Assembly (NCBI GenBank): GCA_014284505.1 | Contig: JAAFYY010000001.1 | Coordinates: forward strand, 2,108,001-2,172,000 | Direction: 5' to 3' | DNA length: 64,000 nucleotides | From: Streptacidiphilus sp. 4-A2 | GTDB lineage: Bacteria; Actinomycetota; Actinomycetes; Streptomycetales; Streptomycetaceae | Part shown: positions 41,879 to 61,759 of the stretch, piece by piece | Numbering within the stretch: position 1 is the stretch's first letter | Layout of the letters: each line of letters opens with the position of its first letter | Translations under genes and position numbers: made by a program | The notes under the pieces: generated by a model | The model's input: the letters and a program-made list of their open reading frames with translations, nothing else | Database searches by the model: none | What the model was told of the DNA's origin: nothing

Positions 41879-43122
41879 CTAGGCCGGAGCAGCTTCTCCT
41901 TGCGCGGCCGTTTGATGGGGCAGCTGCCGAACTGCGGAGGAGGCCAGTGGTACGACGGTGGCGACGGCGTAGATGACTGCTGCGCCGACGGCCACCTTGA
42001 AGCCACCGACGGCAGTGGCGAGCGGACCGACGCAGAGCTGGCCGACCGGAATGGCGATATAGGCCAGCAGGTCGTCGTAGGACGCAACACGCGACAGTAC
42101 ATCGGCGGGAACGTGCTCCTGAAGTGACGTGTCCCACCCGTCGGCTGCCACCGTGGTGCCCACTCCGGCGACGAACGCCGCCATGATGAGCCAGGGAGCC
42201 CCCAGGTGGGCTCCCAGGGCGAGCAAGGGCAACGCGCCAAGCACGCTCATCAGTTGCCCCAGGCGGAGGAGGCGCTTGACAACGATGCGGTACATCAGCG
42301 CGCTCATGAGCAACATGCCCATGCCGCGCGAACTGAGGACGAAGCCCCAGGTCGCTTCGCCGCTGATCTGCTTGGTGAGCGAGGGTCCCAGGATCTGCCA
42401 GGCACCGGTCTGCACCAGATTCACGACGCAGAAGGACAACGAAACCATCCACACCCAACGGATGCGCCGGAACTCGCCCCAGCCATCGCGGATGTCGGCC
42501 ACAATGGTCGATTTCCTCTCGGTGACGGTGTGCGTGGTGATGGTGAGCCCTGCCATGCATCCGGCCGCGAGGAGGTAGGTGACCGCATCGAAGGCGATCG
42601 CAGGTCCGCTGCCGGCCGTGGCGACGACCACGCCCGCCAGGCTCGGGCCGAGAATCTTCGTCGCGTTGCGCATCGAACTCAGCAGGGAGTTCGCTCGCTG
42701 AAGTTCCGCGCTCCCGACCAACTGCGGACGATGCCCCGTAGCGCCGGCGACGTGAACGCGCTGAGAACGCCGTTCAGGAACTCGAGGCAGGCGACCAGGA
42801 GCAGCGTGTAGTGACCGGTGAGCAGAATCGCCGCGACCGCGCCCTGGGTGAGTGCCGAACCGAGATTCGAGAGGACCAGCACGGTCCGACGTGAGAAGCG
42901 ATCAGCGACGGCTCCGCCCACCAGGAGGAACGCCAGCATCGGCACCATCCGCACGGCCAGGACGATGCCGAGGTCGACGGCGCTGCTCGAGGCGTCCAGC
43001 ACCGCGAACGCCAACGCGATCGGGGCCATGGAACTGCCGAGCAGGGAGACCAGCTGACCGCTGAAGAACCAGCTGAAGTCTCTTCGGCGTGCGGGTAGTG
43101 AAAGCATGCGCCTCAGTCTCAT
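41879..43122 (-). CDS. MFS exporter of cluster B
   Basis: ATG 43122 ('MRLRRMLSLPARRRDFSWFF'). About 414 residues and 12 membrane segments, with the MFS signature 'VGGAVADRFSRRTVLVLSNL' after TM2 and further segments such as 'FDAVTYLLAAGCMAGLTI' and 'LSVLGALPLLALGAHLGAPW'. One frameshift near 42715. It is divergent from an ArsR-type regulator with only 43 bp between starts, a typical regulator/exporter pair, and probably provides export or self-resistance for the cluster B product. Confidence 0.85.
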
Positions 43123-43130
43123 GGGTAGCC

Positions 43131-43155
43131 CTGCCGGGCGATAATATTTCGGCAG
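43131..43155. promoter_or_regulatory. Inverted repeat, probable operator of the ArsR-type regulator
   Basis: CTGCCG (43131-43136) and CGGCAG (43150-43155) form a perfect 6-bp inverted repeat with a 13-bp A+T-rich centre (GGCGATAATATTT) that contains a -10-like ATAATAT. It fills the 43-bp gap between the divergent MFS and ArsR-type starts and abuts the AGGAGG ribosome site of the regulator. Binding here would block both genes. Confidence 0.6.
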
Positions 43156-43165
43156 GAGGCGAAAG

Positions 43166-44166
43166 ATGGTCCTGCTGCGAATGTCCCCGATAGCCCTGTC
43201 GCGATCCCGCTTCGCGCTGTCCCCCCTGGCCGAGACGGTCGGCTCCCTGATCGTGCTGAGCAAGCCGTGTACCGATCCCTGGCTGGCCTCCTGGCACGGC
43301 CGCCACCGGAGCGCCCTCGAGACACGCCTCGAGGCCGACCCCTTTGCAAGGGGCATGGTGAGACTTCTCGGCTCGACCAAGCTCCTGCCCGACCTGGTTG
43401 CGGTCCCCCCGTGCGATGGCATGAAGACCACCCTCGACCTCGAACTCGCGATGTTCACGGGCGTGTCGGACGACGAGGTGCACGCCGACTTCGAGAATGC
43501 CGCGGCGCAGAGCTGGGAACAGCATGACCTGGCCTGGCTGTCCGGACGTGGATGGGGCGCCAGGGCCGCGGACCTGATGAGGTCCCTCTGGGATCTCCAC
43601 GTGGCACCGGATTGGGGGCGCCGCCGGGCACTGCTGGAGCGGGATGTCACCTACCGGGCAGGGCTGATCGGCGCGCACGGGTGGCCCAGGGCGCTCCAGG
43701 ACATGAGCCGGGTCAGCGCCTGGGTCGGCGTGGACTCGATCCGCTTCAGCGACCAGCCCTCCCCGGACCGGACTGTCGGCGACGAGGGGATGCTCTTCGT
43801 GCCCGTGAGTACGTCGAGCGGCAGTTGGCTCTGCGAGGCACCGCCGGCCCAGTACGCGCTGGTGTACCCGGCGCGCGGGCGGCAGCCGCGACCTGGGCCA
43901 CCCCCTCCCAGGCCCTCGCCCAACTGATCGGTGCCGGCCGCGCGAGAATTCTGTGCGACCTCGAGTGGGGGGCGACCAGCAGCGAGCTCGCCACGAAATT
44001 CGGCCAGTCGCTCGGCACGGTCGGAGGCCACCTGGCCGTCCTGCGGAACGCGGGAATGGTCGTGGGGACGAGGGTGGGCCGACGCGTGGTCTACCGGCGC
44101 ACCCAAAAGGGCGACGCTCTCGTCGGATCATCTGGGGACGACGGTCGATCCGACGAGAGACCGTGA
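43166..44166 (+). CDS. ArsR-family regulator with long N-terminal domain
   Basis: ATG 43166 with a perfect AGGAGG. The N-terminal 240 residues ('SPLAETVGSLIVLSKPCTDP', 'WGRRRALLERDVTYRAGLIG') match the DUF5937-type domain that precedes ArsR winged helices in actinomycetes. The DNA-binding part reads 'GRARILCDLEWGATSSELAT', 'SLGTVGGHLAVLRNAGMVV', 'GRRVVYRRTQKGDALV'. One frameshift near 43890. About 333 residues. Divergent from the MFS exporter; likely a ligand-sensing repressor of that gene and of itself. Confidence 0.8.
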
Positions 44167-45652: not shown

Positions 45653-46931
45653 TCATGCGGATCGGGGCGGCGGGCAGGCGGCCGCCCGTGAGAATCTTGG
45701 AAGACCTGCTGTCAGGCGAAGTGACTTGTCGTCGTGGAGTCGGTAGGTCTGCTGGACGGCACTGTTGATGAGGTCTTCGCAGGAATCCATGTCCGGGGCC
45801 TCGAAGAGCACCATGGCCACTCCGGCGGTACTGGAGATGATTTCCCCCATGGTGTCGCCGAGCCCGACCCTCATCTGTATGTGGCGCACGCCGGGAAATT
45901 CCTCGATGTCCGCGCGGCTCACCCCGTTCCTGGCTCCGGGCTTGACCGGGAGGCAGGCAAATCCGAAGACGGATTCGCTGCCAGGATGCTCCGCCGGCAC
46001 ATCCTCGCCGGCCAGCAGCCTCGCATGGGCAGCCCAGAGATTCACGCCGATCGTGTACTGGGCGGACAGGCTCGCCAAAATCCCCGGAGGCCGCCAGCCC
46101 AGCTCTCCGGCGATGAATTCCACCGGCTCGCCGAACACTTCGAGATCAAAGGCCCCCAGCGTCCACCGAGCGCGGTGACCGCTGCCTGGGCGAACTCACG
46201 GGCCTGTGCGTAGAGACCGGGATTGGTTTTGACGGGATAGGCGACCGAGCGGAGTGTCGAACCGTATTTTGCCTCGATCGCCGGCTCCAGGAACCGGGAG
46301 ACCAGGAAGTGCTCGATCCGACCGTCAACTATGGTGCCGTCCAGGTGCCACTCGGGCCCCTGCTGCCTTTCCTCGATCACCGCATGCCGCAGTTCCGGGT
46401 TCGTGCTGAGGAGCTCGAAGACGTCCTCGACGGTCGGGCATGAGAAGACCAGCCTGCTTCCGCCCAGAGCAGGCGGTTTGACGATGAACGGAGCCGAGAG
46501 GCCCGCAAGCACCGCTCTGGTTTCGGCGAGATCGCACGGCGCGTTGGTGGTGGTCGCGAAGCGCGACGTCGGAACGCCGTGCCTGGCCCAGAGTGACTTC
46601 TGCAGAGCCTTGTCCGCCCGGCCATCGCGGTGGCCGGGTCGAGCTTCGCAGGAATCCGGAGGAGCCCGCTGAGGATGGCAGCCGTTACCACTGCGATCTC
46701 GTGCAGGGGAATCACCGCGTCGACTTCGTCGGCCACGCCGAGGTGCAGGAGGACGGACCAGGCCAGCTCCGGGCAGTCGTAGGAGGGAACAAAACCGCTG
46801 TGTGCTATCCGCTCCCCCAGCGATTCGACTATCGCCCTGTTCCGCTCGGTGTAGAGCACCGTCAGCGTGTGGCCCAGATCGGCGAGCTCAGTCAGGGCCT
46901 CCGCCTGCGGGCCCAGAACAACGATGTGCAT
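45653..46931 (-). CDS. ATP-grasp carboxylate-amine ligase
   Basis: ATG 46931 with AGGAGAG upstream. The N-terminal preATP-grasp part starts 'MHIVVLGPQAEALTELADLG'. ATP-grasp features follow: 'PFIVKPPALGGSRLVF', 'EERQQGPEWHLDGTIVDGRI', and a C-terminal 'GVNLWAAHARLLAGEDVP' with a closing domain. The family activates a carboxylate as acyl phosphate and joins it to an amine, often forming dipeptides or peptide-amino-acid conjugates. Frameshifts near 46600 and 46170; about 425 residues is normal. In cluster B it is the best candidate for adding an amino acid to a peptide or small-molecule core. Confidence 0.82.
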
Positions 46932-46977
46932 CTCTCTCCTGAGTAGCGTGAGGACGGGAAGCGCGCGCAGCGACTGC

Positions 46978-47699
46978 TTACCCCGGCCACCGCAGATAGG
47001 TGGTTTTACCGCGGCCCGGCAGGACGTACCTGAGTGCCCGCGGTCCAGCCCGAGAGCGTCACGCAGCGCCGCGGTCTCGCCGGGCCAGCCGCTGTGTGAG
47101 ATCTCGTCAAAGGCCAGGACGCTGCCCCGGGTCAAGTACGGCTTGATGGCGTTGATGACATCCATCGTGGGCACGTACAGATCAAGGTCGAAGTAGGCCA
47201 GCGCCACAACCGTGTGGTCGTTGGCTTCCAGATACCCCTGCACCGATGTGCTCACGTCGCCGCTGACGAGCTGCACCGGACTCTTGCCCGATCCGTCGTC
47301 GTGCCGTGCGTCCAGGACCGCCCGGATGTGTTCCTGGAACGACGGCGGGAGGGCGAACTTGTCCGGACGTTCGGCGAGGTTCTTCCGGTCCACGTCCACC
47401 GCACCCGCGAATCCTGTGAACGTGTCGAATCCGACGATGTCGCGGTGGACGTTGTGCGGCTCGTAGATGTCCCTCAGCTCGGCCAGGATCGCGAGATGGC
47501 GCCCCTGCAGGACCCCGAACTCCATCATGGCGCCCGGAACTTCCATCGCCATCTGGTAAAGGGAATCCATGACGAGGATGTCGAGGAGAGGGCGGCGCCT
47601 GAGGTACAGCGCCATCGTGTCGACCAGGTCCTCCATGGCAATGGGTGACTCTTCGAGCAATCGGGCCAGCCGGTGACGCACTTGCTGGTCATGGGTCAT
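46978..47699 (-). CDS. TylF/MycF-type O-methyltransferase
   Basis: ATG 47699 overlaps the dioxygenase stop (ATGA). Family motifs: 'VPGAMMEFGVLQGRHLAILA' (SAM loop), 'DIVGFDTFTGFAG', 'VVALAYFDLDLYVPTMDVIN' (metal-binding acidic region), 'GSVLAFDEISHSGWPGETA'. Members are Mg- and SAM-dependent O-methyltransferases, best known for macrolide sugars and also found in peptide clusters. A frameshift near 47040 hides the natural end; the corrected tail 'GRGKTTYLRWPG' stops at 46978. About 240 residues. Confidence 0.85.
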
Positions 47700-48535
47700 A
47701 TCTTCTCCTCGTTGCTGGTCGGCTTAGGGCTGAGCGCCCACTCAGGGTTCGCGAATGGCCGGTCGAGAGCGCTCAACGGCGTGGGGTCGCGGGAGGCGAG
47801 CCACTCGGGGCGCGGATTCTCCATGGGCAGAAGGCGATTGTGTGTGCTGTTGTAACGGATGAAGATCACAGTGCGCCGTTTGCCCGACAGGTTCGGCGGT
47901 GAGCAGTGCAGCAACCGGCCGTCAAAGACGACGGTTGTCCCGGGTGCGCCCTTGATGGAGACGAGACCCAGGCGGTCGGCCAGCTCCCGGAGCATGTCCG
48001 GGGTGATCTTGTGGCGGATATCGGCGGTCAGGGTGTTCTCCCACCCGTTCTGGTGGGTCACCGTCTCCTCGTCCAACGAGAGCCGATGGGAGCCCGGCAT
48101 GACGAAGATCGGACCGTTGAACTCGGTCACCTCTTCCAGGAAGACGGACACGTTCAACGCCCGTGGCGTCGGCATCCCGTCGTCGCGCTGCCAGTAGAGG
48201 TAGTCCTGGTGCCATTCCCAGACATCGCCGAGGAAGGGCGCCTTGGGATTGAGCTGCGTCTGGTGTATGTACACCTCGCTCTCCAGCAGGGCGCGAGCCG
48301 GCTCGAGATTGCGGATGTCGCGCGTGAACCGGTCGAACGCGTCGCTGTGCCGGTGAACGGCGTAGATCGAACGGACCTGCTCGCCTCCACTTTCGAGAAT
48401 CCGCTGCGGGATCTCCAGGCCGGACAGGCGCCGTGACTCGCTCAGCAACAGCTCCGTCTCCTGCGGTGAAAACCGGCCCGGCATCACCAGATATCCATGC
48501 TCGTGATAGAAGTGAACATCCTCGACTGACAGCAC
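47696..48535 (-). CDS. PhyH-family Fe(II)/2-oxoglutarate dioxygenase 2
   Basis: 279 residues, intact, from ATG 48535. H-x-D in 'VWEWHQDYLYWQRDDGMPTP', distal His in 'GRLLHCSPPNLSGKRR', and the EctD-like pattern 'VYIHQTQLNPKAPFLGD'. It is clearly more distant from the two dioxygenases at 30.2 and 49.8 kb than those are from each other. Translationally coupled to the methyltransferase, which suggests hydroxylation followed by O-methylation of the new hydroxyl (inference). Confidence 0.88.
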   Translation of the reverse strand: MLSVEDVHFYHEHGYLVMPGRFSPQETELLLSESRRLSGLEIPQRILESGGEQVRSIYAVHRHSDAFDRFTRDIRNLEPARALLESEVYIHQTQLNPKAPFLGDVWEWHQDYLYWQRDDGMPTPRALNVSVFLEEVTEFNGPIFVMPGSHRLSLDEETVTHQNGWENTLTADIRHKITPDMLRELADRLGLVSIKGAPGTTVVFDGRLLHCSPPNLSGKRRTVIFIRYNSTHNRLLPMENPRPEWLASRDPTPLSALDRPFANPEWALSPKPTSNEEKI

Positions 48536-50557: not shown

Positions 50558-52082
50558 TCACTCGCTCGCGATCGCACGTTCGATGAATTCCTCGAGCGGG
50601 CGGACATGGGCATCCTGGTCGTCCCACTTGTTCTCGACGTCACTCGCCACGTGGTGGGTGGGCGGCGAGCTCTCCCGAGCGGAAGTGCCGGATCACCGGG
50701 TGCAAGTAGCTCTCGGCCGGCATCCCGGAAGAGTCCCCGCTGAAGAGGGTGTTCTCTCCATGGTCCGGCCCGTATTCCAGCGTGATGGCGAAACTGTCCC
50801 GGTCCGCGCCGAAGGAAGGGTTGTGAAGATAACCCATCGGTACTTCCCGGTAGTAGCGCGCGGATCCCGCCGGAGTGGTGACCAGAAGGTCTGCCAGGGT
50901 TCCGAACTGCTGCCACAGGGCAGAACTCCGGTTGATCCGGCCGATGATCTCGGCGGACAGCTCCGATGCGGTGGCCGGCACAAGAGCGTGGGGCCACGGC
51001 CGATCGGCGTAGCGCTCCTGCAGGATGTGATACAGCGCGCGGGCGCCGTAGCGGAATCCGTGGATGAATCCGTTTGTGGAGCGTTTGAAGTCGAGTTGCT
51101 GGGTCAGCGTGCCGGCGAAGTAGAGTCCGGGTACGTTCACCGACTCGTAGGCCTCGGTGAGCTCGGCGAAGCGGTCCTTGACCGCCAGTCGCGGTCGACA
51201 CCCCTCGTCGAAGATCGAGGTGTCAAGCCGGAAACCAGTGGAGCAGATCACGCGGTCGTAACTGTGCACCCGGGTGGTCCGCCGGAACCGGATCCGCACA
51301 TGGTAGCCGTCATTGTCCCTTTCTATGTGCTCCACCGCACCGTCGAGGACCGCGTTCTGCGACTTCAGCTGGTAGGTGTCCAGGAAGTTGTTGTTGACCG
51401 CCCTGAGGTGTCCCACGAAATGGGTCTGCCAGGCCAGCCGGACCGGACTCGGTCCGGCCACGTGGATCACTGCCGCGGTTTCCAGCAGGTTGTCAGCGGT
51501 CTCGAAAGCGGAGTTGCCCTTGCCGATCACCAGCACCCGCTGGTCGGTGAACTCCTTGGGATCCACGGACACCGTCGCGTACTGCTCGGCCGACTCGATC
51601 CCCGGAATTTCCGGCACATAGGGCTTGCTCACCCCGGTGGCCACGACGACGGCCCGCGCGTGGAAGCTGTTCCCCGTCTCGTCGATGACCGTGAACCCGG
51701 TTCCGGCCCGACTGACCCGGGCTGCACGGCTGCCGTAGCGAATGTGCAGCTCCGGGGTGGCCGCGAAATCCGCGAGGTACCGCACCAGGTCGTCGGCCTC
51801 GGGGAAGTAGCGCTCGCTGTAGTCGGTGAACAGGAGCGCGGGATCGTCGGAGAGCAGAGAATTCCAGTCCATGCGCAGATTGAATTCCCGGTCGTCCGTG
51901 CCGGTGTACCGCTTGTTGGACGATATGAGCCGGCGATGGCGGGGGAAAGTGCGGAAGAACGTCCCCGGCGTGTCGCCGGCCTCCAGTACGACATAGCTGT
52001 CTCCACTCGCGTGGAGGAGATGAGCCAACTGGAGGCCGGCCGGCCCCGCGCCGATCACAAGATAGTCAACGAACATTTCCAC
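50558..52082 (-). CDS. FOXRED2-like FAD/NAD(P)-dependent oxidoreductase
   Basis: Begins at GTG 52082 or ATG 52076 ('MFVDYLVIGAGPAGLQLAHL'), overlapping the membrane-protein gene. Two dinucleotide folds: the FAD 'VIGAGPAGLQLAHLL', and 'RVLVIGKGNSAFETADNLL' for NAD(P)H, followed by 'RVICSTGFRLDTSIF'. It resembles flavin monooxygenases and FOXRED2-type proteins; the C-terminal region ('HVRPLEEFIERA') is typical of the latter. A frameshift near 50640 hides the natural stop at 50558. About 507 residues. It may N- or C-oxygenate the cluster product; substrate unknown. Confidence 0.8.
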
Positions 52083-53693
52083 TTGCCGACCCTTTCATTT
52101 CCATCTCTACAAGGAGGTCGTCCCTCAGCACCAGCCATTCATACCGACTGATGCAGAAATAGATCTCCTTGCGGCGTATCTCAATGCCGGCCAGCGGACC
52201 GTCATCGATTCGGTACCGGGGTAGGTCGCTCCAGTAGTACAGATGGCTGCCGGGCGCTTTGATCCAGTGCAGCCACCGGGGCAGCGGGCTCTTTCGGACT
52301 CCGGCGCGGAGCCTGCCGAAAAGCTGCCGAAGATAGGCCACATGCTGATCGGCCTTCGCCGGATCCCAGTAGGTCATGCCGAATTCCGCCACGATTTCGC
52401 GGAGATCGGTGCTCTCCGGCCGCAGTGCGTGCAGACGGTCCCTCAGGATGGGGTTCTCGACGCCGCCCATAGGGTAGGTGACGAAGGGTTCGGCCGCCAG
52501 GAAGTTTCCCAGCGACCGCCCGTACTCGCGATCGAACGGGCTCATGAACCCGTTGTGGATCGCCACGGATTTTCCAGCCTCCGTGGTACCCGTCCAGTAG
52601 ACGCGTTCCGAAAGCGGAGTCTCCCACCAGCCCAGGTTAGTGGGCTGCCATGCGAGGCCCCGAGCACGAGCAGCAGCACGGCGAGGCTGGCGAGCCACGA
52701 CGTGGAGTCGAATGCCAGCAGCTGAACGGCGGTCGGGGTGGAGGCGATGGCAACGATCAGAGCCGCACCGGTCACGATGTTCTCCAGGAAGAACAGTCCG
52801 GAGCAGAGAACCACGACGACGTTGAACAAGATCGCACAGCCGATGGCCAGTACCGCCAGCGGCCGCTGTGCGAATGCCACCAGGCCCAGCGCTTCGACCG
52901 CGAGGGTGCCCCAGTTCAGCCAACGAGCCGCCGATCCGACCGTTCGCACGACCGACCTCGCCGTCCGTTCGGGGAGGAACCGCCCCCACCCCCACGCATA
53001 CGCGGCGGCCACCAGGAATTCCGGACGATTCCTTGTCGCCCAGGACCAGGGCCTCGGACCGAGGCGCAACTTGCTCCGCAGGGCTGTCACGTAGTGCGAC
53101 AGGAAGACGGTGCCTTGCAGCACCAGCAGAGCGGCCGCGTCGGCTGACGCATCGTGCGTTCCCGTCAACAGACCGAGGCCGCCGGCGATCAGGGACCAGC
53201 CGAAGGTGACCCGGACGATGCGGAGGCTGGCCATGGCGTGATGGGTCCATCCGCCGAGGCGACCGCAGACGGCAACCAGGGCAGCGAGGGCCAGGGGCTC
53301 GTAGATCAGCGCGGCGGCTCCGATGAGCAGCACCGACGCCCGGTCCCAGCGCTGCCAGCCGAGCGGGTGAGCCGCGTCGTAGTCGAAGGTGAGGCACCTC
53401 CAGAGGACCACTCCCAGAGCCGTGGTGGAGACCCAGCACAGAGATCCCGGCGGCGTTCGACCGAAGGCCAGGGCGCTCACGGTGAACGCGATGACCATCG
53501 GACTGACGGTCAGGCCGGCTCGTAGGGCCAGGGGCTTGACCGGGTAGGTCCCGTTCAGTGCTCGTGCGGGGTAGTCACCGGCCCCCAGCCGAGAGGAGCC
53601 CCACTTGGTCGCGGGCGAGATCAGCAGCCGGTACAGCGCGACTGTCGCCGCGACCTCACACAGAACACGCCCCGACCCTGCTGCCCAGTTCAC
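52066..53693 (-). CDS. Polytopic membrane protein with C-terminal soluble domain
   Basis: Probable GTG 53693 (AAGGGGA upstream; TTG 53696 also possible). Roughly nine hydrophobic segments, e.g. 'MVIAFTVSALAF', 'ASVLLIGAAALIYEPLALAA' and 'FFLENIVTGAALIVAIA', then about 190 soluble residues rich in Trp/Tyr ('GWWETPLSERVYWTG', 'RWLHWIKAPGSHLYYWSDLP', 'YFCISRYEWLVLRDDLLV'). The membrane part loosely resembles HTTM/gamma-carboxylase-like proteins, but I see no catalytic motif and do not assign a family. One frameshift near 52650. It directly follows the palindrome after the pentapeptide gene and might be an immunity or tailoring membrane protein. Confidence 0.65.
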
Positions 53694-53721
53694 CAAGTCC
53701 CCTTAGTTGATAGCTGATGTG

Positions 53722-53753
53722 GCTGTCGGGCCCGGCGCGCCGGGCCCGACAGC
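53722..53753 (-). terminator. Perfect 32-bp palindrome just after the pentapeptide gene
   Basis: GCTGTCGGGCCCGGCG (53722-53737) is followed immediately by its exact reverse complement (53738-53753). In RNA it forms a 14-bp stem with a 4-nt loop. It begins 7 nt after the tandem stops of the 5-codon gene and ends 28 nt before the membrane-protein start. There is no T-tract. A partial terminator or 3' stabiliser between precursor and tailoring genes is the most likely role. Confidence 0.8.
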
Positions 53754-53763
53754 GTGCGATTCA

Positions 53764-53781
53764 TCAGTGGCTGTAATCCAT
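53764..53781 (-). CDS. 18-bp pentapeptide gene (MDYSH), candidate minimal RiPP precursor
   Basis: ATG GAT TAC AGC CAC TGA, followed directly by a second TGA, encodes Met-Asp-Tyr-Ser-His. AAAGGAG stands 8 nt upstream, one of the best ribosome sites in the window, and a perfect palindrome follows. M-x-Y-x-H is the form of biarylitide precursors (18-bp bytA-type genes), in which a P450 joins Tyr and His side chains and the tripeptide Y-x-H is released. Here a P450 gene lies immediately upstream on the same strand. Differences: known precursors usually have Arg at position 2 and precede the P450. It could instead be a leader or regulatory peptide, but no other function fits the sequence as well. 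Confidence 0.65.
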   Translation of the reverse strand: MDYSH

Positions 53782-53789
53782 GGCGGATA

Positions 53790-53796
53790 CTCCTTT
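53790..53796 (-). promoter_or_regulatory. Ribosome-binding site that defines the pentapeptide start
   Basis: AAAGGAG on the minus strand, 8 nt before the ATG at 53781. No open frame other than the five codons uses it: the downstream membrane-protein gene has its own site beyond the palindrome. This argues that the five-codon frame is translated. Confidence 0.7.
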
Positions 53797-53915
53797 CGTG
53801 CGACTGGGTACAGGGCACGGGAATTCAACGGGGCAGAATTACCCCGCAATCGATTCCCGCGGTATGAGGGGGCGTCAGCAATCGCGGCGCAGGTGCGCCG
53901 GGATGGTTCCCCGGT

Positions 53916-55091
53916 CTAACGACCTGTTCGGCCGTCGAGCGAAACAGGGAAGACGCCGATGGTGCGCACAGTGGCGGTTCTCCGGCGAGTCGGACTGCCA
54001 GCCATTCGCAAGGGCGCAGGCAGTTCCACCAGGCTTTCGACCAGCGCCCTCACGGCTATCTGCCCGAACATCGAGCCCAGGCAGGCGTGCGGGCCCCAGC
54101 CGAAGCCCAGGTGCCGATTGGGCTTCCGATCCAGGACGAGCTCGTCGGGCCGGTCGAACTGCTCCGGGTCGCGGTTGGCGGAGGCGAGGAGAGCGACAAC
54201 CGTCTGCCCTCGCTCGATCGTGATGCCGCCGATCTTCGTCCTGCTCACCGCAACCCGGCTGGTCGCCTGGGCCGGCCCGTCAAAGCGGATGAGCTCGTCG
54301 GTGCCGCTGGCAAGGAGACTGCTGTCCTTGAGCAGCTCGAATGCCTCGGGATGCTGGAAAAGAGTCAGGAGGACGTTTCCCGCGGTAGCATAGAGGGTTC
54401 CGAAACTGGCGTTGAACACCGTTCCCACAGTGTTGCGCACATAGTGTTCCGGAATTTCATCGCGTTTGGCGTCCTGCTGGAGACCTGCCAGTCCTCCGTC
54501 CACCCCGGCGCCATCGAACCACTGGTCGACCAGCTTGATGAGCTTCTTCCGTGCCAGGTCGCCCGACTCTACGGCCTCCGGGCGCAGCCCCGCGTCCATG
54601 CGCTGCGCGAGCCAGTCGGAAATGTCGACGTACTCCGCCAGATCCGGCTCGGGCACGCCCAGCAGCTGTGAGGTCATGGTCAGCGCGACCGGCGCCGCGA
54701 TCTCCAGCATGAAGTCGAACCTGGGTCGGTCCGCAAGGCTTTCCAGCAATGCCAGGATCTGCCGGCGAGCCGCGGAAGCGACGGAATCCAGGTCCTGCCG
54801 GCGCAGTGCATTGGTAAAGACTTCGCAAGGGCGCCTGGTCCGGGGGTCCAGTGACTGAATATTCTGCTGGAACTCCGGAACCTCTATTCCCAGCCGCCCC
54901 CGGTCCCTGGCGAAAACCTCATGATCGCGGAGCACTTCACGGCAGTCATGATATCCGGCCAGTACCCATGACTTCATCTGCTCGTGCCAGAATACCGGAG
55001 AATTCTTGCGCAACTGCCGGTAGAAGGAATAGGGGTTTTCCAGCGTATCGGGGTCTAGTGGATCGTAGTGGACCACCGCCGCTCCCTTCAT
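53916..55091 (-). CDS. Cytochrome P450, candidate peptide-crosslinking enzyme
   Basis: 391 residues, intact, from ATG 55091, with no Shine-Dalgarno but a strong promoter close by. Heme loop 'FGWGPHACLGSMFGQIA'; ExxR in 'GTDELIRFDGP'. The I-helix reads 'FNASFGTLYATAG': against A-G-x-D/E-T the acid is Gly and the Thr is kept. Loss of the acid is consistent with radical crosslinking rather than ordinary hydroxylation, but does not prove it. It lies 134 bp before the MDYSH gene on the same strand, which makes it the candidate Tyr-His crosslinking enzyme, as in biarylitide clusters. It could instead act on a carrier-bound amino acid from the adjacent NRPS. Confidence 0.85.
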   Translation of the reverse strand: MKGAAVVHYDPLDPDTLENPYSFYRQLRKNSPVFWHEQMKSWVLAGYHDCREVLRDHEVFARDRGRLGIEVPEFQQNIQSLDPRTRRPCEVFTNALRRQDLDSVASAARRQILALLESLADRPRFDFMLEIAAPVALTMTSQLLGVPEPDLAEYVDISDWLAQRMDAGLRPEAVESGDLARKKLIKLVDQWFDGAGVDGGLAGLQQDAKRDEIPEHYVRNTVGTVFNASFGTLYATAGNVLLTLFQHPEAFELLKDSSLLASGTDELIRFDGPAQATSRVAVSRTKIGGITIERGQTVVALLASANRDPEQFDRPDELVLDRKPNRHLGFGWGPHACLGSMFGQIAVRALVESLVELPAPLRMAGSPTRRRTATVRTIGVFPVSLDGRTGR

Positions 55092-55142: not shown

Positions 55143-56398
55143 TCATGCCGAGCAGATGGCCGTGCCCAACGACCCGTCGTTCACCCGGTGGAACAGGTCG
55201 GACAATAGAATCCCGCTCCTCATAAGGCCGTCGTGGCAGAAGCCTTCGGTTATGAGGAGTTGCGTGCTGCCGACCACCGAAGCTGTTCGCCGCTGTAGCT
55301 CCAGCGGCGTATACAGGTCCTCCGCATACGCCAGGGCGACCAACGGCACCTTATTGGCAGCCAGGACTTCCGAGTCGTACAGATCCGGATAGTCGGTGGC
55401 TTCCGCGAGCAGGTCCGCCACCTCTCTGAACGGTTTGAGGTGGGAAATTTCCTGGAACATCCACGGAAACATCATCTCGCCGAAAAGCAGCAGGGGATCG
55501 GCATCGTCGGCAAACTCAGGAAGCGCCGCAAGCGCGCGGTGTGCTGCCCACCTGGTGCTGTATCCCTTTCTGGCATAGACGAACTCCTGCATCGCGAAAA
55601 GCACCCTGTCCACGAATCCGGTGTGGGCGAGCACTGCCTGAAGAAAGCCGTCCGAGATCCCGGTGTCGTCCCACGCGTCCTCGATGAGCTTGTGCACCCG
55701 TTCGAAGCCGTTTGCTCATACCGAGGTTCCGGCCCAGTAGTCGCAGCCGCCGACTGGTCAGTCGTCTCCGTCCGGCAGCCGGACGTCGTGGGTGTCGAGG
55801 TGATCCGAACCGCCGGACGGCCTGGGCGTCGTTCGGATATTCCGCGTAGTACGCCGGTTCTCTGACGTAGCAGGTGTGTGTGAAGACCTCCTCGGCGGTC
55901 GCGTCCAGCCCGGGGAGTCCGCCGGAGACGAAAGCCGCACGCAGTCCCTGGGGAGCCACCGACAGGTAGGTCAGTGCGATGAACCCCCCGTAGCTCTGCC
56001 CGAGGAGCGACCACCGGCGGCCGCCGGCGACCCGCGCGCGCAGTATCTCAGCATCGCGACGATCCTGTAGTACCGCAGGCGCGCTGCCAGTTCCCGGCGC
56101 CTGCTTCCGTTGACTGCGCGGTGACGGGGGAGCTGCGACCGCAGCCGCGTTGGTCCATCAGCAGCACACGGTGTCCTTCCAGGGCCGCGCTCAGCCAACC
56201 GGTGGCGGCGGCCGGCCTGGGTGACGGTCCCCCCGGTCCTCCCTGGAGGAACAGCAGCCATGGCAGATCGTCGTGCTCGTGTTCGGCGGCTACGACCTCC
56301 TGGGCGAATACCTCGATGACCAGGCCATCCGGTCGTCCGTGGTCAAGGGGGACCATGATCCGGTGGTCCCGAAGGATGATGTCGGAGTGGACGGTCAC
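55143..56398 (-). CDS. Proline-iminopeptidase-like alpha/beta hydrolase (S33)
   Basis: GTG 56398 overlaps the NRPS stop (GTGA). 'DLPWLLFLQGGPGGPSPRP' is the oxyanion-loop motif of actinomycete prolyl aminopeptidase-like enzymes. The nucleophile elbow is 'LLGQSYGGF', an Asp lies in 'ALAYAEDLYTPLE' and the catalytic His in 'TEGFCHDGLM'. These enzymes remove N-terminal residues from short peptides or hydrolyse small amides. Several frameshifts between 56100 and 55690 scramble the middle; about 418 residues. Between NRPS and P450/pentapeptide genes, it could trim the N-terminal Met-Asp of the MDYSH peptide (inference). Confidence 0.82.
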
Positions 56399-59300
56399 CA
56401 CGCCTTCGAGGCGCGACGGGTACGTGCGCAGCAGATCTCGGCCCCTTTCACGATCGGTGTCCGAGACGTCCGGTCCGGCCCGGTGGGACGGGAGCTCCTG
56501 CCGGGCGGAAGGGTGCCTGGCTGTGAGGTGTCCGAGCTGCGGTGACAGCTCCTCCTCCACACAGCGAGGAAGGGGGTCAGGTCGTTCGCCTCGCCCTTCT
56601 CCAGAGTCTCGAGAAGCGCGCGCCGCCATTGCCGGTAGGGCACGACGTCGACCGAGCGCCCGGTCGAGCGGATGTCGGAGACCATTTCCCGCCAGGTCAC
56701 CGGAGGACCTGTGACGACGTCACAGACCTCGTCCTGCCACTGGCCGCTCAGCGCGGTGTGCACCACGACCTCGGCCAACAGGTCTGCCGGCGTCACCGGC
56801 AGCAGCAAGTCGAGATCCGGCGCCGTCCGGAGGAGGAGACAGGTCTTGACCAGGGCCGCCAGGAAATCGTCGCCGAGTTCCATGGTCTGCCGCTGGACGG
56901 CGACGACCTGTCCTATCCGGTACGTAAGAGTGGGAATCCCCCTGGCCGCTGCTTCACGCATGTAGCTCTCGCCCAGCCACTTGCTCTGCTGAAGGCCGCC
57001 GACGAGCGACGCGGCGGACCGGGCAAGGTCCTCCGGCGAGCCTGGCGGCTCGCTGTCCCCGGCGGGCGCCTCCGACCGCCCGAGGGCCCGCAGTGACAGG
57101 AAATGGACCGGCTTGACCACCTCGGTGGCAGCGAACCGGAGCACCTCCTGCGTGCCGAGAATGTTGACCGGGACCAGCTGCTCGAACGATGCCTTGTGAT
57201 CGAAACACTCCCCTTCGTGGATGATCACGTCGATCGTGCGGCTGAGCTGGTGATACAGCGGTGCTTCCAGGCCGAGGTTCGGCAATGCCGGGTCACCTGT
57301 CACAGTGCGGATGCGCTCGCCGTCCCCGGGCCGCCACAGCTCGAAGCGCTGCATTCGGGCGCGAAGATGCTGCATGGTGCGACTGTGGTCCGCCGGCCGC
57401 GCGAGCACGTGCACGGCCGCATCCGACTGATCCAGCAACGCCCGGACCAGGAACACCCCCGCAGTGCTCGCTCCCTCGGTGACGAGTATGTTCCGATACG
57501 GCGGCCCGGCCGGTTCGCGGAGGCCTGTCGGACGGATCCCGGGCGGCAAGGCAGCGAACGCCGCCGGCCTGCTCTGCTCCGCCGACACTCGGGCGCCGTC
57601 CACGCCGCGGGCATCCGAGGAATCCCCGCCGGTCAGCCTGACCAGATGACGCACGGTCGGCCGCTGGAAGAACTGCTCGAGGTCGAAGGGCACGCCGCTC
57701 TCGGCGACCCACCGGGCGGCCATCCGGACCGCTATCAGGGAGGTGCCACCCAGGTTGAAGAAGTCGACATCGGGGCCACCTGCTTGCGGCCCAGCAATTC
57801 CGCCCACAGGGCGCAGGCGGCGGCCTCGGCCGGCGTCGCGGGCAGGGGTTGATCGACCTGGCCGGCCAGCCGTTCCTCCCCAGCGTCCACGGTGTTCAAC
57901 GCGGCGCGGTCGACTTTGCCGTTCGGCAGTGGGCAGACGGTCCAACAGGACCATCCGCGTCGGCACCATGACTTCGAGCAGGCGCTCCCGTGCGAACCGG
58001 CGTAGCTCGGTTCGCAGGGCATCCGGGTGCATCATTCCCGACGGGACGCCTGAAGAGGTCGCCTGTTCCGTCGAAGACGGGGCGTGTTGTCCAGGCCTCG
58101 CGCAGACATAGGCCACCAATTCGTCGCCGCGTTCGTGGTGTTGCGACATGACGACAGCGGCCGCTTCGACCTGTGGGTGCTCGGACAGCACGCCTTCGAT
58201 CTCGTCCAGTTCGATCCGGTGACCACGCACCTTCACCTGACGGTCGTTGCGCCCGAGGAAGTCCAACGTCCCGTCCTCGCGCCATCGCACCCGATCGCCG
58301 CTCAGGTAGTAGCGGCCGGCCGACGAGTCCGCATGGCGGACGAAGCGTTCACGATCCAGCTCCGGGCGCCGGAAGTAGCCCTGAGCCACCCCTCGGCCTC
58401 CGATCCACAGCTCGCCGGCCACGCCCACGCAGGCATCGTTGCCAAGGCCGTCCACGACCCTGACGACCGTATGAGCAAGTGGGCGTCCGATCGGAGGTGG
58501 CGACACGGGGGCACCGTCGTGGTCGAGTTGGTTGGCCAGGGACCAGATCGTCGTCTCAGTCGGGCCGTACATGTTCAGGATGCGAACGCCTGGCAGGGCA
58601 TCAACAAGGTCCCCGGCAAGCCCGATGGTCAGAGCCTCGCCACCGACGAGCAGTGTCTCCAAGCCGCGCAGCGCTTCAAGCGCCGCCGGCTGGGCGGCCA
58701 CAGCCGTGAGGAACGACGGCGTTGCTTGAAGGAGGCTCGGCCGGAATCGGCCGACCAGGTCCGTCAGGGAGTTGTTCCCGTGTGCGAGCCTCTCGATCAT
58801 GCGCTCCGGACAGATGACCGTACAGGCCCCCCGCACCAGTGGCCACAGGATTTCCAGAACGGAGATGTCGAAGGAGACGCTGGTGAGCGCCAGCACCCGG
58901 TCGTCGGGCGACAGGCCGATCGCGTGGTCCATCGCGAGGAAGAAGTTCAGCAGGTTGCCGTGCCCGACGACCGTGCCCTTCGGGTGTCCCGTCGAGCCGG
59001 AGGTGTAGATGACGTACGCGGCGTCCTGGCTGGCGATGTCGCCCTGTCGGAGAGCCGTGCCCGTCGGCACGGCGGCCGGTCGACCATCAGCCAGGAAGAC
59101 CGTCGGGGCCTGCACCTCAAGGGGCTTGGCAGCCGGCTCGGCGATGATGCACCGCAGATCCGCGTCCCGGGCGATGAACTCCAGGCGCGCTGAGGGAAAG
59201 TCAGGATCCAACGGTACGTAGGCGGCACCGATCGCCATTGCCGCAAGGAGGCCCACCACGAGATCGACGCTGCGGTGAACGTGCACGCCGACCCGGTGCC

Positions 59301-60270
59301 CTCGGTCCACCCCCACGGCTCGCAGACGATGAGCGACCGTGAGGATCCTGCGATCGAGTTCCGCGTAACTCACCGACTCGTCGGTGTCGCAGACGGCGGT
59401 GGCATGCGGCTGCCTGTTCATCTGCTCGCGGAAGAGGGTGTACACATCAGTGAACGCCGTCCCTTGCGGGAGCGGACCGACGCACCACTTCGTCAGGTTC
59501 TCCCGGTCACCGGCGCTGCGGAGATCTGCACGGGCAGCCACCGCTGCCGGAGCGGCCACCAGGTTTGCCAGCGCCTGCTCGTAGTAGCCGGTCGCCCGCG
59601 TGGAAATCGACGGGTGCACCTGGCCCGGGTCACAGACGACGTCGAGAAGGAGGAGCCGGGACGCATGGTCATGGACGATGCGCACCCTCAACGGGACGCC
59701 GGCCGGTTCTCGCGGCGCTTGCCGATGGTCGGCCTGGGCGTCCGTGCTTTGCTGTGTCCCACCGACGCTCAGGTGACTGTCGAGAACGACGTGCGGCATG
59801 GCGTCCGACACGCGTTCAGCGGAGAGGTGGGCGTGGGGTTCGGCTGCCTTCTCCCAACAGAGCACCTCACGGGCCAGGTCGAGCCACGACTTTCCGGTCA
59901 GGTCGACACGCATCGGCAGGGGACTCGGCGAGGCGCCTGTCGCACGGCCCTTCCCTGCTCCGGTGACGGCAGTCACAACCTCAGCGCTCGATGTCAGGGA
60001 TCCCAGCACGCGCAGGTGAGCCGCGACGAGGAGAACCCGCAACGGGAGTCCGTGATGATCTGCCAGGTGGTAGAGGGCACTGCTGATCGCGTCCGGCACA
60101 GCGACGGGGCCCTGTGAAACAGGGCTCCATGCGCTGCCCGGGCGCACTGCTCCAGGAAGGGGAGAGGCATCGGCCCCCGCCATCACCGAGCGCCAGAACT
60201 CCAGGTGAGCTTCGTCCTGGGACGAGTCGTGCCGACCGGGGCAGACCGGATCCTTGGTGAAATTTGCCAT
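56395..60270 (-). CDS. NRPS: half-C, A (glycine-like), PCP, degenerate reductase
   Basis: ATG 60270 ('MANFTKDPVCPGRHDSSQDE'). The first 280 residues match only the C-lobe of a C domain; no HHxxxDG is present. A domain: '[14 protein letters not shown]', 'NMYGPTETTIW', A10 'LPNGKVDRAAL' (after a frameshift). Pocket residues by eye D-I-L-Q-L-G-M-I-W match the known glycine code. PCP 'VDFFNLGGTSLIAVR'. The reductase-like end has 'NILVTEGASTAGVFLV' instead of TGATGFLG, and 'GGLQQSKWLGE' where YxxxK should be, so Tyr is Leu; the upstream Ser/Thr motif is also lost. It should be redox-inactive. Compensating frameshifts near 57930 and 57775; the last 50 codons are uncertain. About 1290 residues. Confidence 0.88.
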   Translation of the reverse strand: MANFTKDPVCPGRHDSSQDEAHLEFWRSVMAGADASPLPGAVRPGSAWSPVSQGPVAVPDAISSALYHLADHHGLPLRVLLVAAHLRVLGSLTSSAEVVTAVTGAGKGRATGASPSPLPMRVDLTGKSWLDLAREVLCWEKAAEPHAHLSAERVSDAMPHVVLDSHLSVGGTQQSTDAQADHRQAPREPAGVPLRVRIVHDHASRLLLLDVVCDPGQVHPSISTRATGYYEQALANLVAAPAAVAARADLRSAGDRENLTKWCVGPLPQGTAFTDVYTLFREQMNRQPHATAVCDTDESVSYAELDRRILTVAHRLRAVGVDRGHRVGVHVHRSVDLVVGLLAAMAIGAAYVPLDPDFPSARLEFIARDADLRCIIAEPAAKPLEVQAPTVFLADGRPAAVPTGTALRQGDIASQDAAYVIYTSGSTGHPKGTVVGHGNLLNFFLAMDHAIGLSPDDRVLALTSVSFDISVLEILWPLVRGACTVICPERMIERLAHGNNSLTDLVGRFRPSLLQATPSFLTAVAAQPAALEALRGLETLLVGGEALTIGLAGDLVDALPGVRILNMYGPTETTIWSLANQLDHDGAPVSPPPIGRPLAHTVVRVVDGLGNDACVGVAGELWIGGRGVAQGYFRRPELDRERFVRHADSSAGRYYLSGDRVRWREDGTLDFLGRNDRQVKVRGHRIELDEIEGVLSEHPQVEAAAVVMSQHHERGDELVAYVCARPGQHAPSSTEQATSSGVPSGMMHPDALRTELRRFARERLLEVMVPTRMVLLDRLPTAERQSRPRRVEHRGRWGGTAGRPGRSTPARDAGRGRRLRPVGGIAGPQAGGPDVDFFNLGGTSLIAVRMAARWVAESGVPFDLEQFFQRPTVRHLVRLTGGDSSDARGVDGARVSAEQSRPAAFAALPPGIRPTGLREPAGPPYRNILVTEGASTAGVFLVRALLDQSDAAVHVLARPADHSRTMQHLRARMQRFELWRPGDGERIRTVTGDPALPNLGLEAPLYHQLSRTIDVIIHEGECFDHKASFEQLVPVNILGTQEVLRFAATEVVKPVHFLSLRALGRSEAPAGDSEPPGSPEDLARSAASLVGGLQQSKWLGESYMREAAARGIPTLTYRIGQVVAVQRQTMELGDDFLAALVKTCLLLRTAPDLDLLLPVTPADLLAEVVVHTALSGQWQDEVCDVVTGPPVTWREMVSDIRSTGRSVDVVPYRQWRRALLETLEKGEANDLTPFLAVWRRSCHRSSDTSQPGTLPPGRSSRPTGPDRTSRTPIVKGAEICCARTRRASKAW

Positions 60271-60362
60271 GAGACTGCTCGGTCCTCTCCGCCGGGACTC
60301 GCCGGAATGATAGAGATTCGGTTCGAAGCGCATTTTTTCGCCCTAGGTGATGGACGATCTCT

Positions 60363-61759
60363 TCAGGCCACGACAGGAGAGGCAGAAGAATCGGGTGCCT
60401 GCTCGGCGGCGGCCTGCTGTTGATTGTTCCCGGCAATCTCCGGGGCATCGAGCGCCGGAAGAGTGGAACGGCCACCCCCGTGGTGATGACGGCCACCAGG
60501 ACCAGGACGGAGAAAATCTTCTGGGAGATGATGTGCTGGGCAAGCCCGATGTTGATGAAGATGAGGATCATCAGGCCGCGTGCGTTCATGAGCGCGCCCA
60601 GTGACCAGGATTCCCGCCAGGAAAGTCCAACTGCTCTCGCGGCAAGTCCACAGCCGAGGTACTTTCCTGCGAATCCTGCTCCCAGTGTGGCCAGCAGGGC
60701 GAGAAGCATCTCCGGCCGGGTGAATCCGGACAGTACGGTATTAAGGCCGGAGAACGCGAAGAAGACGGGCACCAGGAAGGTGCTGACGAAATCCATCATG
60801 CGGCCGTGCAGGGCTTCCCGGAACTCCGGGTTCCTGGGCATGGCGACTCCCGCGATGAATCCCCCGAAGACCGAGTAGATACCGATCCAATCGGTGAACC
60901 ACCCCGCACCCAGAACGATCAGGGCGACGAGGTACATCTGGCCCGGCTCGACGTTGCCGGTACGAGCCACTCGCGCGCCCATCGGCCGCAGCAGCGGGGC
61001 CACGACAAGCAGCATCACTGCGGCGAACAGAGCACCCAGCGCGAGGGTTCGCGCCGCAGCGGCCGGCCCGCTGCCTGCATGGACGGCAGTGAGGAACGCC
61101 AGGAAGCACCAGGCGACGGCATCGTCGACTGCGGCGGCCAACAAGGCCAGCTTGCCGATCCTGGAGTTCTCGATCCGCCGTTCGTAGAGGATCCTGGCCA
61201 GCATGGGGAAAGCGGTGACGGACAATGCCCCGCCCACGAACAGCGCGAACATCGCTGGAGAGACGTCGGGTGGGGACAACTGCCGATAGACGACCAGCCC
61301 TGCCCCGGCGCCCAGCAGCAGGGAGGGTGCGACACCCGAGACCGCCAGAACGGCAGCGCGACGAGCTTCGCCGCCACGTGCTTCGCCACCGCCGATGCCG
61401 TCCGCCCGGGAGTCAAATCCCACTCCGACCAGAAACATATAGAGAGTCAGGCCGAGCGTGCTCAGCATATATAGCGCGGGTTTGACATCGGCGGGGAACA
61501 GGACGTGCTCCGCGCGGGGTGCGAGCTGCCCCAGCAGTGTCGGACCGAGCAATACTCCGGCGATCATCTCGCCCAGCACTCGTGGCTGCTTGACGGCCAG
61601 AGCCAGCCGGCCGCAGAGTGCCGAAGCCAGGAGTATGGCCAGAAGTGCCACTAGTACCTTGAGCGTAAAATGGAGATTTGGGTCGACGGGCAGTGCAAGT
61701 TGCCGCTGATTCGACCGAACACCAATCAACACGATGTCCCCCATACGGTTGCGATTCAT
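60363..61759 (-). CDS. CPA2/Kef-type cation/proton antiporter
   Basis: ATG 61759 with GGAG 3 nt upstream; ATG 61744 is an alternative. About 12-13 membrane segments with family motifs 'PRVLGEMIAGVLLGPTLLGQ', 'LARILYERRIENSRIGKLAL', 'AAAVDDAVAWCFLAFLTAV' (conserved D-D) and 'GALMNARGLMILIFINIGL'. It exchanges Na+ or K+ for H+. A frameshift near 60430 hides the natural end ('ASPVVA', stop at 60363). About 465 residues. First gene of the collinear cluster B set; related antiporters occur in several biosynthetic clusters, possibly for self-protection. Confidence 0.85.

Follow-up and report, generated by a model that had tools for sequence, protein, structure and literature searches.

The locus described here raises the question whether an 18-bp open frame next to a cytochrome P450 gene in Streptacidiphilus sp. 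4-A2 encodes the precursor of a cross-linked peptide of the biarylitide type. Precursor genes of this class escape gene finders, and the main text of a cluster survey calls them the smallest known genes (PMC13417212). On the minus strand of the window (the whole stretch of 64,000 nucleotides that was analysed) positions 53781 to 53764 read ATGGATTACAGCCACTGA and translate into MDYSH and a stop (codons ATG-GAT-TAC-AGC-CAC-TGA). A second TGA follows in tandem at 53763-53761. The ribosome-binding site AAAGGAG is located at 53796-53790 on the same strand, 8 nt from the ATG, and going back from this ATG to the nearest stop in the same frame no other ATG, GTG or TTG codon is met. The P450 gene (53916-55091) lies upstream on the same strand with a gap of 134 nt, and a perfect palindrome of 32 bp (53722..53753, minus strand) is found directly behind the pentapeptide gene. 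An earlier note had reported the 18-bp frame, the tandem TGA, the ribosome site with its spacing, the palindrome and the upstream P450, and rereading of the sequence confirmed each of them. The pattern ATGNNNTAYNNNCAYTGA matched once within the window and never in 100 shuffles, and the same result was obtained with GGAGN{4,10}ATGNNNTAYNNNCAY, which describes MxYxH with a ribosome site. A genome scan (9.05 Mb) for AGGRG, 8 nt, MxYxH and TGA also gave one match, with none in the reversed control. Given a single window match against none in 100 shuffles and a single genome match with the site, the motif is not a product of chance, and we regard it as very probable that 53781-53764 is the true structural gene of a minimal RiPP precursor.

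The P450 at 53916..55091 (minus strand, 391 aa) is the proposed Tyr3-His5 cross-linker and is of the biarylitide type by sequence, tree and predicted fold. Compared with PDB sequences, its best eight matches reached 232-249 bits, the next two 188-190 and the remainder at most 129; the nearest were P450Blt and RufO, with 36% identity to P450Blt. The top 13 PDB fold matches of the predicted model (mean pLDDT 86.6) were all P450Blt or RufO structures (TM-score by query length 0.84-0.92), followed by CalO2. In a tree of 40 rows the window P450 is placed within a clade of 12 rows (support 100/99), and the sister of this clade is the P450 of Actinokineospora inagensis (support 100/98). The tree left out the P450s of the related loci L102, L105, L106 and L107 and the second P450s of L089, L092, L095, L097 and L099; L082 and L084, which duplicate the contigs of L012 and L014, entered neither the tree nor the counts. 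Judged by sequence and predicted model, the window P450 is thus assigned to the biarylitide (P450Blt/RufO) family. In the alignment, the I-helix consensus of the clade is (F/L)NA(S/A)(F/Y)(G/S)T. At the places of His234, Glu238 and Ser239 of P450Blt the window enzyme has Asn, Gly and Thr, and its residue 169 is Ala; RufO (9m47) has His, Glu and Val at the aligned places, and Asp169. Positions 234 and 238 are described as controlling the specificity of P450Blt (PMC10929621). When close P450s were sought across the phylum (E<=1e-75, scoring four candidates in each genome), the own genome alone among 396 gave a match, and a search of plasmids gave five records, all below 51% identity. Among the published accounts compared, a set that does not extend to the SgrB and ShyB precursors, no assayed enzyme was found that could be placed in the clade.

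The earlier note had proposed to look for the five-codon frame beside homologues of the P450. A P450 match occurred in 39 genomes, and loci from 30 of these were examined; in another set, of 69 loci, a precursor scan covered 13. Each of the 11 P450s that share the clade with the window enzyme is accompanied by a candidate gene for M-x-Y-(D/N)-H, five codons or slightly longer. The fourth residue is Asp in eight cases and Asn in three, and in 9 of the 11 the gene lies within 3 kb of the P450. MSYDH is located just downstream of the P450 in L010, L011, L015, L081 and L083 (44-155 nt past the matched end), MTYDH 1.7 kb upstream in L014, and MSYNH occurs twice upstream in L093. MRYDHCL (L086) and MSYDHAPN (L018), also upstream, carry 2-3 extra residues at the end. 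MIYNH and MMYNH lie 9.0 kb from the L012 P450 and 7.6 kb from the L013 P450, respectively; these two would be too distant to accept save for their mutual agreement. Outside the clade, no precursor candidate was found within about 20 kb in L091 and L094. The 15 coding bases of MSYDH are identical in 10 of 10 pairs among five genomes (L010, L011, L015, L110 and L112), with flank identities of 37-66% from -60 to -25, 58-74% from -25 to 0, 40-71% from +18 to +60 and 38-55% from +60 to +110; in more distant clusters the serine codon is TCC or TCG.

Together with the family of the P450, these counterparts support the part of the earlier interpretation that places a biarylitide-type precursor next to its P450. 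The other part, that a P450-first gene order extends the class, was rejected. The same arrangement is present in 5 of the 11 clade relatives and in MKYWH clusters of six genomes, where the precursor begins 15-32 nt after the matched P450 end, and a downstream precursor is already in print: in the main text of the survey MRYWY follows its P450 at a distance of 1.4 kb, and a separation of the precursor gene from the P450 gene is said to be confined to six MRYWY clusters (PMC13417212).

Several precursor candidates of unusual position or form were noted in the same loci. The MMYNH genes (L013 16726 (+), L164 4464 (+)) and MIYNH genes (L111 1014 (-), L163 15013 (-)) have ribosome sites and, in two Streptomyces, stand directly before an ATP-grasp ligase and a membrane protein, MemP; no P450 homologue closer to them appeared in the sequence examined. 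At 7.6 and 9.0 kb they fall beyond the 3-kb search radius given for CoreFinder (PMC13417212). The over-long MSYDHAPN (L018 3260 (+), in a Flavobacteriales MAG) and MRYDHCL (L115 10834 (-)) have P450s of the same clade downstream. In L119, tandem MSYNH genes (9293 and 9412 (+)) precede the P450 and are adjoined by NRPS genes (C-A-T and a homologue of the adenylation-carrier-reductase protein).

The peptide MDYSH corresponds to MSYDH with Ser and Asp swapped (Asp2/Ser4 instead of Ser2/Asp4). That Asp at position 2 departs from the usual, as the earlier note held, is borne out: among 394 same-family genomes the own genome alone has MDYxH preceded by a GGAG site, and Asp2 is absent from every other candidate in the loci examined. 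Since MDYSH was met once, conservation supports the position of the gene and the M-x-Y-x-H pattern rather than the sequence itself. A sequencing error behind Asp2/Ser4 was considered and is thought unlikely, because 5 of the 15 coding positions are different between this gene and the MSYDH gene of L010, within an intact frame. A match between Asp2 and the P450 pocket was also considered. The column of P450Blt residue 74 is Glu in five MSYDH enzymes and Ile in the window, but this gives no conclusion because the enzyme of L014 (MTYDH) has Ile as well. A Met-Asp start should retain its Met, and methionine aminopeptidase normally acts on Met-Ser. P450BytO, a characterised relative, is reported to tolerate changes at positions 2 and 4 (PMC12951456). 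The main text of the survey contains no word starting with MDY or YSH (PMC13417212), and full-text searches for MDYSH and MSYDH, which cover articles and not their supplements, gave unrelated matches only. Provisionally, in a comparison that does not extend to Table S1 of the survey, we consider MDYSH a new precursor sequence. The locus would add to the class a precursor unseen in the relatives searched, with a Tyr-Ser-His core that has an unexpected ring residue, as well as a P450 clade with no assayed member in the accounts compared and a cluster in which a pentapeptide P450 occurs alongside ATP-grasp and NRPS-like genes.

The genes around the pair are on the minus strand as well. MemP (52066..53696, two frames) is 46-48% identical to its homologue L010 5090-6703, for which no Pfam or NCBIfam match was found; MemP gave a predicted model with a mean pLDDT of 36 and occurs in at least four of these clusters. 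It is followed by an FAD-dependent oxidoreductase (50640..52082; Pyr_redox_3, 5.6e-51; 62% to L010), a PhyH-type dioxygenase (47696..48535; PF05721, 4.5e-31), an ATP-grasp ligase of the L-amino-acid-ligase type (45653..47723), which is spread over three frames with collinear matches to L010, L011, L014 and L015, and an MFS transporter in two frames (41879..43650; PF07690, 3.8e-12 for 41879-42721; 47-59% to L010). The intact ligase homologue L011 6715-7968 matches ATP-grasp and LAL_C2. On the other side of the P450 lies an alpha/beta hydrolase, weakly proline-iminopeptidase-like and spread over several frames (55143..56629), with a 45% match in L119; its fragments match Abhydrolase_1 (1.9e-5 and 3.3e-4) and NF045948 (2.7e-5), all below cut-off. 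Further on are an NRPS-like protein with adenylation, carrier and thioester reductase domains (56395..60333; PF00501, PF13193, PF00550, PF07993 and TIGR01746; 47% to L119), whose amino acid may be glycine according to a specificity code assigned by eye, and a Na+/H+ exchanger-like membrane protein (59981..61759; 36% to L010 3689-4969, which matches PF00999). A separate NRPS region at 11135-31945 (+) has condensation, adenylation and reductase domains in broken frames, together with a P450, a PhyH protein and a phosphopantetheinyl transferase domain.

The window and the MSYDH cluster L010 have in common the MFS, ATP-grasp ligase, flavoenzyme, MemP, P450 and Na+/H+ exchanger-like genes. Three genes of the window recur in the MSYNH cluster L119, namely those for the ligase (35% to the L011 enzyme), the hydrolase (45%) and the A-PCP-reductase (47%, 473 residues aligned); a C-A-T NRPS protein adjoins this cluster. 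In many relatives the gene set further includes a PreATP-grasp ligase and a protein that matches amidinotransferases in the PDB. Searches of the window genome for the ligase (query L015 6665-7987, E<=1e-20) and for the amidinotransferase-like protein (E<=1e-30) gave no match, so that the window represents a cluster branch with another ligase. From our own reading of its Pfam match, L015 6665-7987 is probably the Pgm1-type ligase of the survey. A connection between loss of this ligase and loss of Asp4 was not upheld, because the genomes of L010 and L011, without a ligase match, keep Asp4 and L013 has the ligase with Asn4.

With the biarylitide systems (bytA/bytO; P450Blt with MRYLH; myxarylin with MNYLH) the locus shares the features tested for this class: an 18-bp gene for M-x-Y-x-(H/Y), here M-x-Y-x-H, with a ribosome site, an adjoining P450 coupled to it, and membership of this P450 in the P450Blt/RufO family. 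It differs from them in Asp2/Ser4, in Asn and Gly for His234 and Glu238, in a P450 only 36% identical to P450Blt, and in the additional ATP-grasp ligase, flavoenzyme, PhyH protein and A-PCP-reductase. Sequence and model comparisons support a system that works like a biarylitide system, with a predicted cross-link. The main text of the survey lists 277 biarylitide clusters, 47 of them with Asp4 and a Pgm1 ligase (PMC13417212). With this subgroup the window has the P450 clade (Asp4 or Asn4 in 11 of 11 relatives) and ATP-grasp chemistry in the cluster in common, but it has Ser4 and Asp2 and, genome-wide at the thresholds used, lacks the PreATP-grasp ligase and the amidinotransferase; the MSYDH clusters L010 and L011 also lack this ligase. 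The window system, without Asp4 and without a Pgm1-type ligase, is outside the subgroup. The MKYWH clusters (AchB type) resemble the window in the precursor just downstream of the P450, but they belong to another P450 branch (about 38% identity), keep His234 and Glu238 and have Trp4.

The rufomycin pathway, in which RufO is reported to nitrate MRYLH on the way to a product of an NRPS (PMC12186263), offers a different precedent. It has in common with the window the pentapeptide substrate, the P450 family and NRPS-type genes nearby, and in such a scheme the window P450 would nitrate or hydroxylate Tyr3 on a disposable carrier that feeds the NRPS proteins of the window. RufO structures are among the nearest folds of the P450 model, one of the NRPS-type genes is close to the P450, a C-A-T protein adjoins the related cluster in L119, and a single nitric oxide synthase gene is present in the genome. 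The features specific to rufomycin are however absent. The window P450 lies in the tree outside the branch of RufO chain 9m47, Asp169 and Val240 of RufO are replaced by Ala and Thr, and a distance of 1.02 Mb separates the cluster from the sole match to nitric oxide synthase. Moreover, His5 is kept in 11 of 11 clade relatives, and a mere carrier of Tyr does not obviously need it. On the residues, the tree and the missing clustered synthase we rejected RufO-like nitration as first choice and consider it improbable.

Two further explanations dispense with a product. In one, translation of the five codons and the palindrome would control transcription of the downstream MemP gene. A strong hairpin follows straight after the pentapeptide gene (RNA fold of -33.5 kcal/mol, z -4.21; none of 200 shuffles as good) and is succeeded by MemP, and the MTYDH gene of L014 likewise stands directly before MemP. 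In the relatives, however, the pentapeptide precedes the P450 or an MFS gene or sits kilobases away, so that the downstream gene is not constant, the conserved part is the amino acids Met, Tyr and His, and direct reading gave no attenuator-type run of codons. A consensus scan of 53650-53950 detected no promoter of the sigma-70 type and no hairpin followed by a T-run; the palindrome is thus not a textbook terminator. The 60 nt 3' of 16 candidate precursor genes (the window and 15 others) fold with -17.0 (L112) to -44.5 kcal/mol, the shuffle control referring to the window hairpin alone. We regard this regulatory role as the least probable of the alternatives. Slightly more credible, and still improbable, is a decaying remnant in which the precursor frame persists, the P450 and its neighbours are broken and nothing is made. 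The ligase, MemP, MFS and hydrolase genes each extend over several frames, coding-like ORFs (>=200 aa) cover just 0.15 of 41-61 kb, and the genome as a whole has an intact rpoB and no excess of frame switches (0.5 against 1.3 per 20 kb in the sister genome). In the P450, Pro and Arg at positions 84 and 90 are lost, though they are common to 15 other MSYDH-type rows (9 from the clade and 6 further ones) and P450Blt; by eye, the segment between the two positions appears shifted. Against decay, the P450 frame is open across 391 aa and the pentapeptide gene still has its start and stop codons, the Tyr and His codons, the ribosome site and the hairpin. The genome has a completeness of 76.5% versus 98-100% in 13 other genomes of the genus, a mean ORF cover of 0.34 in ten 20-kb stretches (range 0.10-0.48) versus 0.70 in the sister genome, and, by our own reading, at least three other P450 genes split between frames, all of which fits an error-prone assembly. 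When ten randomly chosen stretches from each of two genomes were compared directly for frameshifts, no comparable pair emerged. The ligase, MemP and MFS homologues in L010 or L011 are unbroken, and the split ligase, MemP, MFS and hydrolase genes are probably, though not surely, intact in the organism.

The reading that we prefer is cross-linking of Tyr3 and His5 of MDYSH by the window P450, to which we assign, from sequence and model comparisons, a probability of roughly 0.78. Points that count against it are the Asn and Gly at the places of His234 and Glu238, the departures at P450 positions 84 and 90, the split frames of the ligase, MemP, MFS and hydrolase genes, and the single occurrence of MDYSH. 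The ribosome would make the pentapeptide, and the P450 encoded upstream would bind it, with Met-Asp as a two-residue leader, and join the side chains of Tyr3 and His5 through a C-C, C-N or C-O bond, with a loss of 2 Da. Met-Asp would then be cut off by a peptidase, for which the neighbouring alpha/beta hydrolase is a possibility. In the case of myxarylin a prolyl oligopeptidase is described as probably cutting the leader (PMC12951456), and by analogy the hydrolase is a candidate for leader removal here. The ATP-grasp ligase and the oxidative enzymes of the cluster may elaborate the bridged Tyr-Ser-His core, and the MFS protein may export the product. A more specific and rather unlikely version is a RiPP-NRPS hybrid, in which the ligase would join the bridged core to further units, one of them an amino acid that the A-PCP-reductase loads and reduces, to give a cross-linked peptide aldehyde or a derivative. 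If so, the exchange of Ser and Asp would mark a branch off the route through PreATP-grasp ligase and amidinotransferase of the Asp4 relatives.

Some observations concern other loci. The nitric oxide synthase domain outside the window (G000:C4:3183211-3184260) lies in an open frame of 865 residues. L104 and L106 each have a tandem pair of MRYLH genes upstream of one P450. In L122 an MSYDY candidate at 15576 (+) is located about 5 kb from a P450 on the opposite strand, in a cluster with a carbamoyltransferase.
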